A DNA stretch of 64,000 bases from NCBI GenBank assembly GCA_020055645.1, contig CM034547.1, positions 32,990,909 through 33,054,908 of the forward strand, read 5' to 3'. Under the pieces are notes generated by a model. That model searched no databases, was not told the DNA's origin, and saw nothing but the letters and a program-made list of their open reading frames with translations. Shown piece after piece: positions 11,021-25,267 of the stretch. A program made the translations under genes and the position numbers. Numbering within the stretch: position 1 is the first letter of the stretch; every line of letters begins with the position of its first letter. This stretch comes from Tomocerus qinae (taxonomy: Eukaryota; Arthropoda; Collembola; Entomobryomorpha; Tomoceridae).

Positions 11021-11337
11021 TTTGCTATTTTTGTTTCAACTTCCTGAGTTTTGCTCCGATTTTCTAATGAAGTACATTTTCGGAAAGGTAAAAACATTGG
11101 CTAGGATTTGGATAAGGAAAATTTTCGATTATTGTCTCAGTTTATATACAGTTCACACTTTATGTTGACTTCTGGATAGAAATTCAGTTAAAATTTTGAA
11201 CCATTGCTACTCCTAAATGATCAAAAAAATCAAAAGTTTTCCTTATCCAAATCCTAGTCAATGTTTTTACCTTTCCAAAAATGTACTTCATTAGAAAATC
11301 GGAGTAAAACTGAGGAAGTTGAAACAAAAATGGCAAA
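11021..11337. repeat. Foldback element with arms of about 110 bp
   Basis: The left arm (about 11021-11130) is repeated in inverse complement at about 11228-11337 with scattered mismatches, leaving a loop of about 97 bp. Clear shared blocks include TTTCTAATGAAGTACATTTT and GGATTTGGATAAGGAAAA. This is the shape of an old MITE or foldback transposon; no target duplication was identified. Confidence 0.8.
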
Positions 11338-11615
11338 AAATTTTAACATGTAATTTGATAGTCACCTGAGTTTCCCAAATCGTATACACAATCACCTTAA
11401 TACAATACATCACTGTTTTCTTGTTACAGATATAGAAATATCCTACACAGATTCAGATAATCAATGATAAACAGAAAATTTTGTTATTTTTGGAATATTT
11501 ATGGAGGTACTGGATGACTTTAGATTAGACCAGGGGACAGACATAAACGGATGTAGCGAGCCCAATAGATGTAGGGAGCCCAATAGATGTAAAGATCTAC
11601 TATTAAGGACACTTA

Positions 11616-11775
11616 AGCCTAAACTATAGTTCCCGTTTCATCGTTAAGTTCACGTTTGGTGACGTCAAAATGACGTCATATCACATTTCAAATTTTTTTT
11701 AAATTACTGTAGTGACGTCATTTTGACGTCATCAAACGTGAACTTAACGATGAAACGGGAACTATAGTTTAGGCT
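11616..11775. mobile_element. Near-perfect hairpin MITE carrying four CRE-like sites
   Basis: The arms at 11616-11678 and 11713-11775 are 63 bp each and complementary at 62 positions, around a 34-bp loop. Each arm contains two copies of the palindrome TGACGTCA (the consensus cAMP-response element), so four sit within about 65 bp. Bases just outside the arms are TTA-like on both sides, but a target duplication is not certain. No coding capacity. Confidence 0.8.
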
Positions 11776-13734
11776 TTATAGTTAGTGGCATCTACACCAA
11801 GCACTATAGATATAATTATGACCTAGACGAAGACAGCTTCAAGTATAATAATAATGAGGGTGAAGGGGGTAAGGCCACTTTTCTCAGGTTTTAAAATGTT
11901 GTTGACTTCGTCGCTAACGATTTGCAAGGTCGTAAGCACAGCCTATCGATGGGAAGAAAAGTTTATCTACGTATTACTTTGGTGCAACTTCTATTTGTAT
12001 AGATATTATGTACATGAAGTAAGATGCACATTACTAAACTACCACAACTACTACTACCTAACTAAACCTAAATAAATAAATAAGCGTTCCTTGAATATAA
12101 AATGCTGCTATTTGTTCTACAATAGTATTTAAATCGAAGTTTTCAAATCAAAGTAGTTTAACAAAGTATAAAATGGGTAATTTGCATACAGGCAGATAAA
12201 AAGTTGAGAAAATAGGAAGGCACTGTCCAGCTAAAACCAATTTATTCCAGTTTGGACCAGTTGCTTTTGGATTCCCTGCACCCTGCAATTTTTCAATCGA
12301 TACTCTAATCTAAGCATTTTCGCATTCATTAAAGTGAAAATCTGCAACATTTGAGTGACTGTATACTACATTAATGATAGATAGCTAAGTTCCTTCCAGA
12401 AGGCTCCAAATAATTAAGCATATCTTATCTTGTTCTTCTCTTGAGGTTCAACCTTGTACACTTGTATATGTAAAAATTATGCTATCCTGCTTAGTATGCT
12501 TTCTGGGTGCATTGTCCTATACTGTACCGATACCGACTCTGAATTGAGCATACCGACATGATTTGATGCATCTATCTATGGCTAATATTAAATGATTGCT
12601 TCTACATACACTGCATTTAAATGCAACTTTGCGTTTTTCTCAATGCACCTCGTGAAGTATGAGGGTGTGTCCACCTCCTGCAAGCTTAAAAATAGTCACC
12701 ATAAAACTTCGCCTTACTTTTAGACCGTCCTTGCTGTCTATATAATAAGTTATATGAAGCAAGACAATATCATTATATGATATTTATATACAAACCTAGG
12801 AAAATACAAAACTAGTCTATATGCATGACTGAATTGGCAATTCGCAATTCACAAGTTTAGTTTTACTTAGAAATTTTCTGTCCGTTTTAAGAGGAATTTT
12901 TATCCACCTACCTAGTACCCATTGTATTACAACAATATTAAATACCTGTTAGTTTTTGCTAGTCCGTGTATATGGACTTTGAGACAGCTAAGCATCTAAA
13001 AACGCACGTAAAAGTTAATTGGATTTCGTCTCCACTCCTCCACTGCTGACCAATAGCATTTCTCAGAATTGTAGGCCGAGTTTTTCCGTTGGCTCCTGCT
13101 TGAGCTCTTCCTCTATATTTTACATACCATGCATTCCCTACTTCTCTGTCTGCGTATGCCGTGAGCTGAGCTGGTGCATGGTGCATATGTACCTCTATCT
13201 ATGTAACCCAGCTATTGTATTGTATATTTTCCACGTCGTCGTGTATGTCCATAACTCACTTGTACGAAGTATTCAGTCAGAGAAGTCTGTCTTTCGCTCT
13301 CTTTGCATTTCCATTTGATAAATTTACTCTTTTCTTCTCTTTGCCAGTCAATCGCAGTTTGGATTTCACTTCACTGACATCAGTCTCACCTCCAACCTCA
13401 CGTTCGTTTGTTCGATTGTTACGCATCAAATACTGTAAGTGTTTTGAAATCTAAAAAATATCATTTAAGTTGTTCTTTGTTGAACGAGATTTTCAGTGCG
13501 TTCGCTATAATAGTACAAAAAGTTTCCTGATAGATAAGCAATATTTTGTGTACGAAACTCATTTCCGGTTACCTTACTTTTCCATCAGAATCAGTTTATT
13601 TCTGTTTGAGGTTTCAATGATTTGTTTCCAATTTCCCATTATTTGTTTAATGCTCTTGTGATGAAATGTTTTATAATTTATTTATTTATGTGTTTAGTTT
13701 AGACTGTTTGACTACCAAAGAATTGCATAGAGAA
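11776..13734. other. Gene-free stretch and probable 5' leader of the small Ser-rich gene
   Basis: From about 13020 the sequence becomes pyrimidine-rich and less AT-rich. A consensus donor GTAAGT at 13435 and an acceptor ending at 13702 would make a 5' UTR intron just before the Met at 13735. The open frames at 13019-13454 have no domain likeness and are treated as leader sequence. Nothing was recognised at 11776-13000. Confidence 0.4.
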
Positions 13735-14207: not shown

Positions 14208-14325
14208 CTTCTAGATCATTGCTCGTAGAACAAAGAATTTTTTATAAGGTAAATATAATTATTGTGTTTGTAATATTTTGCGCAGGAATGCATGAGATGA
14301 GATCTTGACTATTTGTTGTATTGTA

Positions 14326-15463
14326 CCGGGTGTCTGATAATTACATGAAAGTGTTCTAAGTCCTATAACTCCTGAACAGAGGCTGCTATGAAAATGAGAT
14401 AACCACCATTGAAAAGACAATCGTATTTTCAACAAAATGGGTTATAATAATAATTTTGGTGACTCTTATTACAGGGTCAGCATTTCGACAAAAAAATATC
14501 AAAATAGCCTATAATTGTGTGTATACTTGACATAATTGGAACGGTGACACTTTTAGGAATAGTAACTTAAGCTTCCGATGATAATGAAAAGTGATAGATA
14601 ACATTCAAAAGAGTACGAAAATAGTTATAAAACTATTTTACCCCTCTTGGTTTAGACATTAGACGTTTAGAAAAAATTAAGACTTTAAACACCACATTGG
14701 CATATTGAAAGAGCGAAATTAAAGACATTTTATCGTCCGAAGGAAACCAAACGTCTCAGGTCTTTAATAAATTGTTTACATCAGTCTGTAGCTGATGCAG
14801 AATGAATTTCCTTTTGGATTTTTCTGAGCTAGCCCGATTGGGTTCCAATGATCATTATTTAAAGGTAATGAACTAATGCAACATTTAAGAGATGCAGAAT
14901 TTTCTGAAAAAAGAACACTTGGTCTGAGAGCTGCCCTTCAAGACAAATAATTTTAACTGTAAATCAGAATCCTAAACGATGGACTAGTGTCTAGAGGAAC
15001 GACTGGAACGGCCCAGCACTTTTAGTAGTTTTTACAGCTTTGTTAAAATTTGTGCAGTTATTATTGTTGCTTTGTCAAGTGACTTTAACAAACTTTTACT
15101 CAACAACTTAGTCTAAATGGTGGTCTTTGAAACCCAAGAATGTCATTTCAACAGGTTTTTAATGGCTTCAATCTGCATTTTATTCAATCGCAATTCGGTT
15201 GAAAAATCGTTACCAAAATCACAGAAGACGGAAGCGAATTAAATAAGTAATTTTGTGTTTATTTGAGATTTTTAACAAGGGAAATTGGCCTTTGACTTTC
15301 CCATTTTTAATGTGTGTAACGAAGGTTTTAAAAAATTATTATTATAGGCCATTTTGTTGAAAATACGATTGTCTTTCCTATGGTGGTTATCTCATTTTCA
15401 TAGCAGCCTCTGTTCAGGAGTTACAGGGCTTAGAACACTTTCAAGTATTTATCAGACAGCCTG
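14326..15463. mobile_element. Non-autonomous DNA transposon, TIR 132 bp, TA target duplication
   Basis: The terminal inverted repeats at 14326-14457 and 15332-15463 match with roughly ten mismatches over 132 bp. The element ends read CCGGGTGTCTGATAA and, inverted, CAGGCTGTCTGATAA. TA dinucleotides flank both ends (14324-14325 and 15464-15465), as in Tc1/mariner-like insertions. The 874-bp interior has no ORF of note, so it would need a transposase from elsewhere. It lies about 120 bp downstream of the small Ser-rich gene's stop. Confidence 0.85.
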
Positions 15464-15465
15464 TA

Positions 15466-18985: not shown

Positions 18986-18989
18986 ATAC

Positions 18990-19408
18990 TGTAGTATTTG
19001 TAGTATTATAAGATATTGTAATGTACTATCTATAAGGGGAATACTATTGTACTATAATAATATAAGGTGCGACATGCGCACGGGGGAGACTGGCTGATTG
19101 TAACTGTTGAGCGGTAGCGAAACAGAAGGCAGAAATAAGATTGTAAAGTCAGTAGTTGGGATCAGTAGAGAATTGGCAGTCTACTCGATCAGGCGAGGAG
19201 TAGAGTATTGGCGAGCTACTTGATCAGTCGTTTGGGTCTCGGTCTGCGAAGCAAGTCTGCACTACTATGGCAGAAATAAAGAGAGACAATTAAGAAGTAC
19301 TGCAGATTGTCCGTCTATTCATTCCGTGGCATCTTCACCTGACTCATACTCAACCCGCCTATCCCTATCTCTTATATCTCTACCATCCGGGTTCACGTCA
19401 TCCTTACA
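18990..19408 (+). repeat. 5' LTR
   Basis: 419 bp, TG...CA termini. A TATA-like run (TATAAGG at 19061) and AATAAA at 19275-19280 suggest U3 up to about 19.09 kb and an R/U5 part after it. Read against the right copy, no difference was noticed. Confidence 0.93.
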
Positions 19409-22400
19409 AAAGATGCGTTTTTTTCGATTTTGACGGGACGAGAAATGGACCAGGAGGAAGACAACAGCGGAAACGACGACGGAGGATAGAAGTCAACATC
19501 TGCATCGCAACCGACGACGTAAGTGAAAGTGTTTTTTTTGTTTAAATTTTAATTGGGAATATTAAAAAGGGAAAATTTTGATTCATATAAAGTTAAATTT
19601 TGAGAAAAGGGGATGTTAGAATATGCCTATAATATAGTAGTTTGAAAAATTAAATTAAGGGGTTAAAGTAAATGGGGGAGGAGCGCGTCACATTAAATAA
19701 GGACAAGTAAATTGCGCTGAATCCGAATATATATTTTTTGTTTGCTAAAAGTTTGTCATTTTTTCAAAAAATTGGGATTTTTACAACACATGGAAAAGAG
19801 TAGGAGAGCTTGGGCCACTAAATGGTCGGCCATCTTATTAGTATACTCCATTCCATGCTGCAGCAACAGAGTACTTCGTGTATGTATACCGTGTATTGTA
19901 TTACACACAAGCACAGTGCAACACGAAAGGAGCTGTTGATTTCTGCGAAAGGGAAAGTTGAATTGAAATTGAAAGTTTTTATTGAAATATAGGCATATCA
20001 TTGAAATTATTATTGGAAATTGTGGTTTTTGTAATTGTGGGTGTATAATGTGTAAAATTTGTGTGAATTAAGGGAAGCATAGCATTTAGAAAAGGAAATT
20101 TTCGATTGAATTTGGTCATGTGTATTATGAAATTTAGATTGAAAAAGAGAGCAAATTGTGGGGCAGAATGTGAAAAGAGTTAAAATATATTTATTATTGC
20201 ATTTGGAATATAGTAGTGTATATTTATTATGAATTTGGAATTTTAAATGGCAATAATAATATGAATTTCTAATTTTGAGTTTTGTTAACCAACGTGAAGT
20301 TATAGCGTAAAGATAAAAAAGCAAAGTAATGTTATAGCAATTTTGGTTTGGATTTGTAAGTTTGGATTTTAAAGTTTTGATTCATTTTCGTATGAGAGGA
20401 AAGTAGCAAGATGCCCCATAATAAGCGAAAGGAGTAGATAGTTAAGGATAATTTAAGGTTAAAATTGGTGGTAGCTGTTACGGAAAGACCTAATGCACTT
20501 TCATTAGAAAAGCGAGTTGGAATTGGTATTGAAAATGCAAACGAGTGAAGTCTGGGATTTCAGTCGTCTGCATAAATTATATTTGAACTTTGATGATCAG
20601 TGAGATTTTTGTGATTTTCTGTCTAGAGATAAAAAGTAATTATTTTCGTTTTGGATTTTTGTCAGTAACTAATTAACTTAATGATAAAAGCTAGCGTTGT
20701 TCTTTGAGAAGCAACGACGAATCATGCGATTCGTATAGCGAGATTCTAATTTGAGAATTTAACTAATTAGATAAAAAATTATGAAATACCTACCTAATAA
20801 GAATTATGGTGATTGTATCTAATTGAAATGAATAATATGTGTGCAATGATTAGATAATTGGTAGAATGGCATAATGAGATAAAAGTAAATTTGTTTAAAA
20901 GTTTGTACTAATTGGTATTTTGTTTCTTTGAGCTAAAATCTAAGTGTGTTTCTCGACGGAATCCTAATCTAACTTGACATCAGACTGGCGCCGAGAAACG
21001 TGGCGATGGCAAAGAATGTGGCCAAAGAGACGTGAGGTCAAGGAGACTCAGAGGACAAATCGAGGAGAAGAGTCGTTTGAGAACTCGTGAAGTGAAGAGG
21101 ATGATGGAGGAGGAAGACGAGAAGGACGTATGGATTGGAACTTGGGTTTAGGAGTACTCATTCTGAGACTCCAAGGCTAAGTCAAAATTATCGATTTCAT
21201 TTATTTAATACAATTTATTTTGATTATGGCATTTATTAATGAAAATATCGTTGCACTTTGGAAAATTCTGATTTTATATCATGTGGTATTTGAATTTATT
21301 TTGATTTTGTTTGATTTGGAATTGAAATTAACTTAAACTATTGGTCTATATCGGTCTGGACGTGAGTGTATAGTAGGAGTAAGGAATTATGATTGGAAAT
21401 GGGGGCATTTGAGATGCATTTAATGAAAATTTTGGATTTAGTTTAGAGTAATCATGTAGACTAATAGACAGCATGTGGTTATTTATTTAAGAAAGGAAAC
21501 ATGGAATAATTATACAATGCATATAAATTGGGAGAGATTTAATGGAATAAAGTTAGAATTTTGGAAATGATAGTATGATTTGTTATCAGAGGTTTGATTT
21601 TGATTTGAGGTGAAGAAATGTGCATTTATAATTACGAAATGAAGGAATGGCATGAAAGGTTAATAGAGATTTAGTTAATGATATGAAGTGAGTGTGCGTT
21701 TGAGTATAGTTATAAAATAATTTGGATTTCGTGAGTTTAATTTGAAATTATGCGTTTGTTTATGAAAAAGCGATTAATTATCTACAAGGCATTTGGCGTT
21801 TTATTATTTTAAATGAAAAGCGAGATTCCAATTGGGAATGAGCAAGCGAGATTCCTATTGGGAATGGGAATGCGAGATTCGCATAAGCGAATAAAAGAGC
21901 AAAGCTAATAATAATAAATCCTTTTGCGTGTCTATCTAGTAATTATTTCGTATTTTTCTGATTGTACCTAGCAATACAGAGATGAATAAAATGGAACATT
22001 GAGTTGATAAGCATTAATTTTTGGAGATTTAATTTTGGAATTGAGTTTTATTCTTGGAAACGTAAATGAAGTTAAAGTTAAATGAATTTTGGGAATAATT
22101 TTAGTAAAGTCAATTTTGTTTCGGGGATTTTATTTTTGAAATGTTGATATTGGATAAAAAGGTGTGAATTTGATTGGAAAGTCACAAAGTATGCCGGTTT
22201 GGATAAAAGAACGAGTGAAAATTCAAGTATGAGGTGTGAATGGAGATCAGGATAATAGGAATGGGGGATTAGTTTCTCTACGTTCTGATTCTCAATTACG
22301 GGCAAACTGAGAATAAGTAGAGCAAGGCATCAGCAGTTACGTTAGAAGGGACTTGTTGGAGAGAGGATTTCCTAGGTCGTGGAAAATGTAGAGTTGCTGT

Positions 22401-24830
22401 ACGCTGAGTTTGAATTGTCTCAAAAATATAATTGTTTGCAAAAATTCTTCGATTCTTTGAATCATATCTTGAGATTGAATGATGGTTGAACGAATAGCTA
22501 GTATTACCTTAAGAGACGTAAGCTATAATACGGAGTGATCTAGTAAAGAATCTTCTACCTTAAAATTTATTTTATTTGAAAGTTGATTTTGATTTATTTG
22601 AACAATTGGGAAATTATTTGAAGGTCTGTTGGATAACTTGACTTTGCTAATGGAATTTTAGTAAAAGTAACTGGGGAAAATTGATAATGCTTATGAAAAT
22701 AAAATGTGAAGTGAAATTGAAGTTGTAATTGCTAAGGAATGTGTTTAATGTTGATCCTGTATTACAGACAGTATAAGTAAAAAGGATTTATGCGTTTAAT
22801 TTTGCAGTTGAAGTTTGCTAGACAAGAAATATTTATATTTTCGTGAAACTTGAGTTAGTCAAATAGCAGTAAATCTTAGTTGCATAAAGATGAGAGAAAG
22901 AAGAAGTGCATATAATTTTAGGAAAAGTTGAAGTTATTGTATTTTTGGCTAATAGCTATGAATTGGAGAATACTTCAGTAATTTCATATATGTAAGGTTT
23001 GATTTCTTAGGTTACCTATAACATGTAACCATGAATTGAGGAATACTATCGATATTTGTAATGAAGTCGCTTCCTTGGAGTGGTGAAATCTTAGGAATTG
23101 TGGGAATGAAAACTGATCATTAGGAAAATGAGATTCGCTTCTCTGGATTAGTGAAAAGGTTTGAAATGCATTGATGAAAACTTATAGTAAGTAAGGCGGG
23201 GTGACGAAACGTAGGGAAAGCGTTGTATCTACTAGTACTACTCGGAGGATAATTAAATTGATAGTGTCATTGGCGCATCAGTGGGACTATTCAATAAAGC
23301 GAAGAAATGCTGTTATGTTTTGGGTTACGATTTCTAAATCTGGTACTTTTCGATCGTGTAAGGCTTAGCTCTAACGTTCCATCCTAGGGATGCATTGGTT
23401 GTAGCGTAGGAAAAGCGGTGGACCGGATTATTAGTATTACCTTGTGGGAGAATAATGTGCAGAGTACATATTATTCGATACGATAATAATGTAGGAAACG
23501 TGAGGCTTGTTCAGACGGTGCAATCCATCCTATAGATTAGTATTTATTTTAGTTGTGATTGAGAATTGATGAGAATTGGAAATGATTGGCATAAGAAATG
23601 AGAATTTAATTTAAGGATAATTTGTTGGTGAGAAATAGTTATAGGCTGAAAGAATAGAGAGGAATTATCATATGTTTGATACGTAAGGAAAGTGGAAGCA
23701 AGGGATTACCCGCACTGGAGAAAGATAATTTGTTGATATTTGGAAAGCAAATATGTAATTAAGTTGAGAAAGACATCCTGAGTCAGGGATTGTCATGAGC
23801 AATAGATTTAAGTGAAAGAGTTAGATTTAAGTTAAGTTGAGAGAAAGCCTTGAGGGCAAAAAATGAACTGTTATAGTATTTAAGAGAGAAATAGAGGCCT
23901 TGAGGGCAATGAGATAATATAGTAGTAGTAGAATTTAAGTTTGAGATTTTGGGTTGAAAGAGACCAATAGTTTATAAGTAAAGTTTTGAAAGTTTGAAAT
24001 TGATGAAATTATGAAATTGAGTGATTTAGTAATAATAGAATGTGTTTAAAATGAGATAATATTCTTGATATTATGTGTTTTGAGTTGGAAAAGTGTCTGA
24101 AAGTAATAATTAAGAGTTTTGAAGTGAAAGCTAGCACCAGGGAGTGGTGAAAGGAAAAGAGAGACACAAGTAAAAGTTTTAGTGCAATTTTTGTTGGATT
24201 TTTCTGAGAGAAAAACAGAATGTTGGGAGTGCAAAGGTATGAGTGTGATTTATGCTATAATATAGTATGTTTTGAATTTTGGTATAAAAGTATGATAAGG
24301 ACTTTGGTAATATAAATGTTTTTGAAAAGGAATTGGAATTAATGGAAAAGTCAAAAAAAAAAGAAATATTAATTGCTAAAGGAAAAATTAATTATTTGTG
24401 TTTTGTTGTATTTTTGGAACTTGGAAATGAGTCATTTGAGTGTTGCGGTCGTATCCGTATGAGGAGAGAGACGACATGACAAGCGAGCAGGAATGAAAGC
24501 CTGATTTGATGAATCGTGAGAGGCCCCACGAGAGAATTATTTCTTCTACTCAGCAATTGTCATCGAAAATCTACAGCGTCTCAAATGATCGAGCAACATG
24601 AAAAGAATATTGGCATTAAGATATTATATATGAAATGTTTGAATTAAGATTGAATTATGTTTATGATTTGGAATTATGAAGTTATGTATTATGTGGAAAT
24701 TGGCATTATGATGTTAAGTTTGAGGTTGAAATTTGTTAGTTGACATTTATATTATCAACCAATTGTAAAAACAACTTGCATGGATTTTTCTTTTGGGTTA
24801 GAAGGGTTAATTTCGGGAGAAATTAATTGT

Positions 24831-24841
24831 GAGAAAAGGGG
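24831..24841 (+). other. Polypurine tract of the LTR element
   Basis: GAGAAAAGGGG ends three bases before the 3' LTR, the position of the plus-strand primer in LTR retrotransposons. A similar purine run occurs near 19603, so the assignment rests on position. Confidence 0.7.
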
Positions 24842-24844
24842 ATT

Positions 24845-25263
24845 TGTAGTATTTGTAGTATTATAAGATATTGTAATGTACTATCTATAAGGGGAATACT
24901 ATTGTACTATAATAATATAAGGTGCGACATGCGCACGGGGGAGACTGGCTGATTGTAACTGTTGAGCGGTAGCGAAACAGAAGGCAGAAATAAGATTGTA
25001 AAGTCAGTAGTTGGGATCAGTAGAGAATTGGCAGTCTACTCGATCAGGCGAGGAGTAGAGTATTGGCGAGCTACTTGATCAGTCGTTTGGGTCTCGGTCT
25101 GCGAAGCAAGTCTGCACTACTATGGCAGAAATAAAGAGAGACAATTAAGAAGTACTGCAGATTGTCCGTCTATTCATTCCGTGGCATCTTCACCTGACTC
25201 ATACTCAACCCGCCTATCCCTATCTCTTATATCTCTACCATCCGGGTTCACGTCATCCTTACA
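24845..25263 (+). repeat. 3' LTR
   Basis: 419 bp, same sequence as the 5' LTR as far as can be read, with AATAAA at 25130-25135. It is followed by the ATAC target duplication. Confidence 0.93.
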
Positions 25264-25267
25264 ATAC

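Follow-up and report, generated by a model that had tools for sequence, protein, structure and literature searches.

The closest described systems include the large retrotransposon derivatives (LARDs), for example Sukkula of grasses, which have a non-coding core and are presumed to be moved by the proteins of autonomous elements (PMC7215508). Mouse VL30 elements are full-length and carry replication signals without coding capacity; their RNA is packaged into virions of Moloney murine leukaemia virus (MoMLV), and a range of 436-681 bp is given for them, taken to be the length of their long terminal repeats (LTRs) (PMC4859993). In Culex quinquefasciatus, the non-coding cqUNK elements span about 1.6-14.6 kb and have LTRs more than 98% identical, and no master copy is reported for them (PMC3286476). 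Helenus elements of animals, which are terminal-repeat retrotransposons in miniature (TRIMs), are non-autonomous, make 4-bp target-site duplications (TSDs) and are thought to be moved by Gypsy elements, while copia-type and fungal Helenus elements prime from inside a tRNA (PMC10886601). Here we examine an LTR retrotransposon at positions 18990-25263 of a 64,000-nucleotide stretch of the collembolan Tomocerus qinae genome (GCA_020055645.1, contig CM034547.1, positions 32,990,909 to 33,054,908), hereafter the window. This element, the window copy, is a recently inserted member of a non-autonomous family whose RNAs are probably co-packaged, template-switched and moved by the proteins of another element.

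The window copy has direct LTRs with TG...CA ends, a TSD of fixed length and a polypurine tract (PPT), the features by which LTR retrotransposons are recognised. An initial annotation of this DNA had listed identical 419-bp LTRs, an ATAC duplication, the PPT and TATA-like and AATAAA signals, and had read them as a young insertion from an active non-autonomous family without gag or pol. These features are all borne out, and so are the youth of the insertion, with 0 differences over the 419 bases compared between its LTRs, and recent activity of the family. An LTR search across the 334-Mb genome to which the window belongs returned at least 42 matches, counts being lower bounds as 40 of 48 candidates were scored. 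Among them are 12 other LTR-LTR copies, making 13 with the window copy, and all have interiors of 5.4-5.7 kb with no long open frame. Aligned by blast to the window element, seven of the 12 match in a single stretch and four in two stretches, these four (L009, L014, L019 and L020) carrying about 220-230 extra bases at one point; the remaining copy, L018, is rearranged. Perfect 4-bp TSDs flank 10 of the 13 copies (ATAC in two, ATAT in three, CTAT in two, and TATT, AACC and AGCC); the flanks of L010 are mismatched, and those of L013 and L018 could not be read.

Most insertions in the family are young. In eight of the 13 copies the two LTRs match perfectly and without gaps (3194 aligned bp), and in 10 no substitution distinguishes them, the comparison covering 373 bp only in L013 and extending beyond the LTR end in L018; the other three pairs carry 3, 5 and 17 substitutions. 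Between copies, the picture is one of divergence. The interior alignment and the tests made on it comprise 12 copies, with the rearranged L018 excluded, and these interiors differ by 5.2-9.8% (mean 8.2%), which also bears out the conservation of the interior that the initial annotation had proposed to look for. Compared between 11 different copies, the LTRs are on average 8.8% apart. Identical LTR pairs within copies, set beside interiors and LTRs that have diverged between copies, indicate that the recent insertions derive from different, long-separated sources.

The interiors are mosaics. Pairs of copies that are 5-8% apart share identical runs of 677, 637, 598, 598, 521 and 440 nt, where 82-108 nt are expected; in all, identical runs reach 332 nt or more in 12 of 66 pairs, the longest being 677 nt, against 76-108 expected from the overall distance of those pairs. 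Nearest-neighbour differences summed per 250-column window amount to 2640, compared with 3692 +/- 31 in 30 column shuffles. Among 563 informative sites, four-gamete incompatibility is 0.31 for those 1-5 sites apart and climbs to 0.58 when the distance exceeds 150 sites, and none of 1000 site-order shuffles attains the observed value. Both the window-based differences and the four-gamete trend are signs of recombination, with linkage decaying with distance. For one pair, the point of exchange can be placed. No difference separates the window copy from L012 in the last 521 nt or more of the interior, as far as the alignment reaches at the 3' LTR, or in the first 113 nt of the LTR, yet across the entire LTR the two differ by 5.9%; a switch point therefore lies inside the LTR.

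In retroviral replication, a single cycle produces the two LTRs of each new copy. Template switching would thus explain how a mosaic can still carry identical LTRs, since both arise in the same cycle, and the combination of mosaicism with identical LTR pairs suggests that the switching took place before insertion. We propose that each copy is transcribed from its own LTR and that its RNA would be packaged and reverse-transcribed by the proteins of another LTR element. Two different family RNAs would often be packaged together, and the reverse transcriptase would switch from one to the other. The product, mosaic DNA bearing a pair of identical LTRs, would then be inserted with a 4-bp target duplication. 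On these features the window copy is probably best read as a passenger of the LARD or VL30 kind that is moved in trans.

The main rival explanation holds that the mosaics come from gene conversion between loci or from ectopic recombination among copies resident in the chromosomes, with no part played by reverse transcription, and we regard it as unlikely. It would account for dispersed copies that share identical tracts of hundreds of bases and for several rearranged loci (L018, L010), and it fits one copy better than template switching does: in L020 (G000:C1:50993900-51000900), the two LTRs, 17 substitutions and a 28-bp gap apart, lie within an intact ATAC duplication. Conversion between resident copies would, however, often change one LTR only, yet eight of 13 pairs are identical and 10 lack substitutions in a family whose LTRs average 8.8% difference between 11 copies. 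It also leaves unexplained that singleton changes are strand-asymmetric, with G>A at 99 of 1172 G columns and C>T at 16 of 457 C columns (p=3e-4). Such asymmetry would be expected if substitutions arise in the retro-cycle and not while the copies reside in the chromosome.

A partner sharing the LTR ends, which the initial annotation had predicted, did not emerge: exact matches to the PPT boundary, the leader boundary and the promoter block all belong to the family. Across the 334 Mb, the 28-mer spanning the PPT/LTR boundary, allowing up to 3 mismatches, returned 14 matches, 14 of them family (control 0), and exact matches to the LTR/leader boundary, 12 in one search and 13 in another, were likewise all family. 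Counting all matches, the LTR/leader boundary gave 24 against 21 for its control, and 783 against 971 at 2 mismatches (about 100 listed), no clear excess; with the looser patterns, no coding partner was present among the matches listed. Integrase domains are plentiful in this genome (579 candidates, 150 scored), many in frames of more than 1000 codons. Of the 150 scored, the one nearest to any of the 42 LTR matches is 20 kb away, and none comes within 20 kb of the 11, 78 and 33 looser pattern matches compared with them.

Individual candidates for a partner were rejected or found no support. At a 15.2-kb LTR pair at C1:62.43-62.45 Mb (L021, L022), rejected, all frames of at least 120 codons in the two loci are simple-repeat frames. 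A leader match at C1:83.11 Mb (L053, L056), also rejected, belongs to a family copy that is rearranged and carries an insert; one frame of the insert has a sub-threshold match to an endonuclease/exonuclease family (E 2e-4), as in LINEs (long interspersed nuclear elements). Two repeated strings, with 12 and 5 matches, were followed up at one place each (L054 and L055), and they lend no support, as neither 4.1-kb stretch holds an LTR-sized direct repeat. In L055 there is weak similarity to a reverse transcriptase, short of the cut-off (E 0.002), on the other strand from that of the pattern, and the pattern itself falls inside an open frame. The sequence GAGAAAAGAGGATTTGGAGC, found at 12 places in the genome (L055 among them), resembles the PPT boundary.

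Several observations weigh against movement in trans with template switching. No helper with matching termini was found in the assembly by shared LTR, leader or PPT. A looser 20-mer of the PPT boundary keeps an excess over its control (92 matches, 14 family and 78 non-family, versus 47), the non-family matches including the two repeated strings just described. A primer-binding site is expected directly downstream of the 5' LTR, and the first 37 bases there contain nothing of the TGG type that would pair with the 3' end of a tRNA, the first TGG standing at 19446. When the G>A asymmetry is split by columns, it weakens to p=0.07 in variable and 0.01 in conserved columns. Finally, the L020 LTR pair is not predicted by template switching and may record gene conversion or an unusual strand transfer. 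A helper is still needed; it is not recognised by shared termini or LTRs here. It may have unrelated termini, be missing from the assembly or have been missed. Detection of a partner through shared LTRs, the customary route, can thus fail.

An extension of this proposal, which we consider improbable, is that the family forms a freely recombining pool of RNA genomes whose helper is not stably resident, being an infectious, polymorphic or otherwise absent retroelement. If so, the chromosomal copies would be fresh, mutually shuffled snapshots of that pool, and a non-resident helper would account together for the old lineages, the mostly young insertions and the missing partner.

None of the interiors offers an obvious coding frame. 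In the window copy, the longest stop-free stretches are 123 codons on the minus and 72 codons on the plus strand, and a six-frame Pfam scan of this copy with stops read as X found no family at E<=1, gag and pol included. Across all 13 LTR-LTR copies, to which the open-frame measurement was extended, the longest open stretches per interior are 64-89 codons (plus) and 79-199 codons (minus). Variable sites show no clear codon periodicity, those of the conserved core described below included. Quite improbable, in our view, is that the interior is an intron-containing gene whose functional product is a short mRNA that begins at the leader ATG and is spliced. Splice-like signals do recur: GTRAGT stands at the donor-like column in 12 of 12 aligned copies, a branch-like CTAAC with an acceptor follows 1.44-1.47 kb downstream in the nine copies where the script detected them, and in eight of 12 the leader can be read through 27 codons into the donor-like site. 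The frame fails at several points. It stops ahead of the donor-like site in the window copy, L014 and L015, and the spliced frame is inconsistent among those nine copies, with stops in L012 and L019 and shifted carboxyl ends in L011, L013, L016 and L017. A spliced small protein was rejected as the product on this variation of the second-exon frame, and the lack of clear periodicity likewise speaks against it.

We judge it very improbable that the family is a decayed derivative of an ordinary autonomous element with remains of gag and pol. A leader open reading frame (ORF) of 14 to 27 codons and a splice-donor-like site are placed as in a gag leader. Decay would have to be reconciled with the Pfam result, with the common interior of the copies, seven of the 12 others aligning to it in a single stretch, and with the missing periodicity; decay after the window insertion is excluded because the LTRs are identical. 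The degraded gag/pol trace that the initial annotation had named as counter-evidence did not appear in the translated search. Nothing was found in favour of its other counter-case, an assembly artefact in which a duplicated contig end yields the identical LTRs, and we give it virtually no credence, since 12 further LTR-LTR copies lie elsewhere, at loci with differing flanks, and 4-bp duplications in 10 of the 13 exclude both chance and assembly duplication.

The interior is one-sided in composition. It contains 8.9% C and 23.2% G, a GC skew of about 0.45, compared with a maximum of 0.32 for 1-kb segments in the rest of the window. A pure mutation equilibrium was rejected as the cause, with a predicted C fraction of 0.14-0.16 and an observed one of 0.089; as the spectrum at equilibrium still leaves 14-16% C, it explains the composition in part only. 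The G>A excess resembles the action of a strand-specific mutator and could reflect reverse-transcriptase bias or deamination. Diversity per window drops as C content rises (Spearman -0.55, p 2e-5).

The interior has a conserved non-coding core of 1.3 kb, whose limits were set by eye after viewing the diversity profile. Diversity per 100-bp window is 0.016-0.075 (mean 0.045) in the core and 0.043-0.160 (mean 0.094) in the other 41 windows, the means being taken by hand. The core may function in RNA packaging. A conserved RNA fold was not shown for it, none of the 14 lowest of 152 folding windows falling there. Folding z values below -3 occur in 8 of 76 plus-strand windows but in 12 of 76 on the minus strand; one value of -65 was disregarded and ascribed to a low-variance shuffle set. 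The stretch 20680-21180, evaluated in one sequence alone, folds at z -2.8.

The coordinates of the window copy are collected in the table. In the 5' LTR alignment of 11 copies (L013 and L018 excluded), all 40 bases of the promoter block are constant in 11 of 11. About 60 bases following the 5' LTR (12 copies) and about 40 bases preceding the 3' LTR (13 copies) are nearly invariant. A second, internal PPT-like sequence begins 188 bp past the 5' LTR, and most of it is nearly invariant across copies. Self-priming through LTR-leader pairing was rejected: the pairing amounts to just 7-bp matches, one of which (GCATCTT) reads GCATCCT in several copies.

Features of the window copy (window coordinates; empty cells, nothing reported)
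Feature	Position	Strand	Remarks
5' target duplication	18986..18989	.	ATAC; flanks 5' LTR
5' LTR	18990..19408	+	419 bp; ends TGT...ACA; sequence equals 3' LTR
TATA-like stretch	19053-19067	+	
LTR promoter block	19053..19092	+	TATA-like stretch plus TAAGGTGCGACATGCGCACGGGGGAGACTG (19063-19092); putative promoter, from sequence
AATAAA, poly(A)-like signal	19275..19280	+	columns constant in 11/11 aligned 5' LTRs
Interior	19409..24844		5436 bp
Leader	19409..19470	+	right after 5' LTR; starts AAAGATGCGTTTTTTTCG...; nearly invariant in 12 aligned copies
Short leader ORF	19445..19489	+	putative; 14 codons, TAG end in window copy
GTAAGT splice-donor-like site	19519..19524	+	putative splicing
Internal PPT-like copy	19596..19614	+	AATTTTGAGAAAAGGGGAT; 18/19 bases match 24825-24843
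G-rich, C-richer block	20984..21151	+	after possible acceptor (branch-like CTAAC, ...CATCAG/ACTGG); open to TAG in window copy
Conserved non-coding core	22180..23479	+	1.3 kb
3' PPT	24825..24843	+	TGAGAAAAGGGGAT at 24830-24843
3' LTR	24845..25263	+	419 bp
3' target duplication	25264..25267	.	ATAC; flanks 3' LTR

Beyond the 13 copies, two partial ones, L024 (3' part only) and L053/L056, stand outside that count, and the remaining LTR places are LTR-only as far as seen. Those at C1:14.86, 18.97, 19.02 and 80.12 Mb, together with an inverted pair at C3:0.54 Mb, were classed as LTR-only by promoter-block spacing, because no second promoter block lies on the same strand within 25 kb. Genome-wide, the promoter 30-mer has 36 exact matches and 43 within 3 mismatches (control 0). 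Two promoter blocks lie on one strand less than 25 kb from each other only in the 13 copies, at a solo LTR present in duplicate at a distance of 15.2 kb, and in L010, where an LTR is repeated in tandem. That solo LTR (L021/L022, C1:62432000-62448300) was duplicated together with its flank, about 1.05 kb at 96.6% identity, and simple-repeat sequence lies in the 15 kb between the two. Family LTRs in opposite orientation lie within about 1 kb of each other at L026 (C1:82833562-82834037) and at C3:544285-545377, and L018 (C1:92880200-92887700) contains inverted interior pieces and an extra inverted LTR.

The genes neighbouring the element in the window look ordinary, with ABC transporter, MIF4G and BTB domains and a sub-threshold polyprenyl-synthase match. 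In keeping with an arthropod host, the genome has 114 matches to PF00379, a cuticle family of arthropods, against none in 14 control genomes, a comparison that does not extend to other animals. No tRNA gene was found in the 64-kb window. No Rfam family reached its gathering score there, and permissive scanning of the element yielded a single match, at E 3.4. Two stretches match their own reverse complement, 11021-11337 (317 bp, 81%) and 11615-11776 (162 bp, 88%), and resemble foldback elements or miniature inverted-repeat transposable elements (MITEs). A 134-bp inverted repeat (14324-14457 and 15332-15465, 92.5% identity) encloses about 1.1 kb in the manner of a non-autonomous DNA transposon.

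We found no description of this family in the literature searched, which is no proof that it is unpublished, and a phage collection gave no match. The element is of a known type; the interesting part is its recombining, mostly young population structure, and its composition is unusual too. Two signals occur jointly, most LTR pairs being identical while the interiors are 8% apart and recombine almost as a sexual population does; this combination of young insertions with diverged, recombining interiors was not met in the literature examined. Non-coding LTR families are easily missed, because most searches target proteins. The present one offers a natural system in which to measure template switching and packaging choice in an arthropod.

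Compared with the described systems, the family resembles LARDs in having an interior of several kb that is non-coding in 13 of 13 copies and conserved within the family. LARD LTRs in barley are several kb long, whereas those here measure 419 bp; the host is an animal, no partner was found and no conserved fold was shown for the core. TRIMs are almost without an interior, in contrast to the 5436 bp of the window copy, and Helenus LTRs contain tRNA-like sequence, while no RNA family reached threshold here. cqUNK differs in its internal tandem repeats, clear tRNA primer site and mostly 5-bp TSDs; the window element has short tandem repeats only, a 4-bp TSD and no such primer site that we could find. 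VL30 is similar in layout but retains stop-containing stretches related to gag and pol as well as a tRNA primer site, neither of which was found here. By analogy, the working principle of the family would be closest to that of LARDs and mouse VL30, and the nearest insect precedent would be the master-less non-coding families of Culex.

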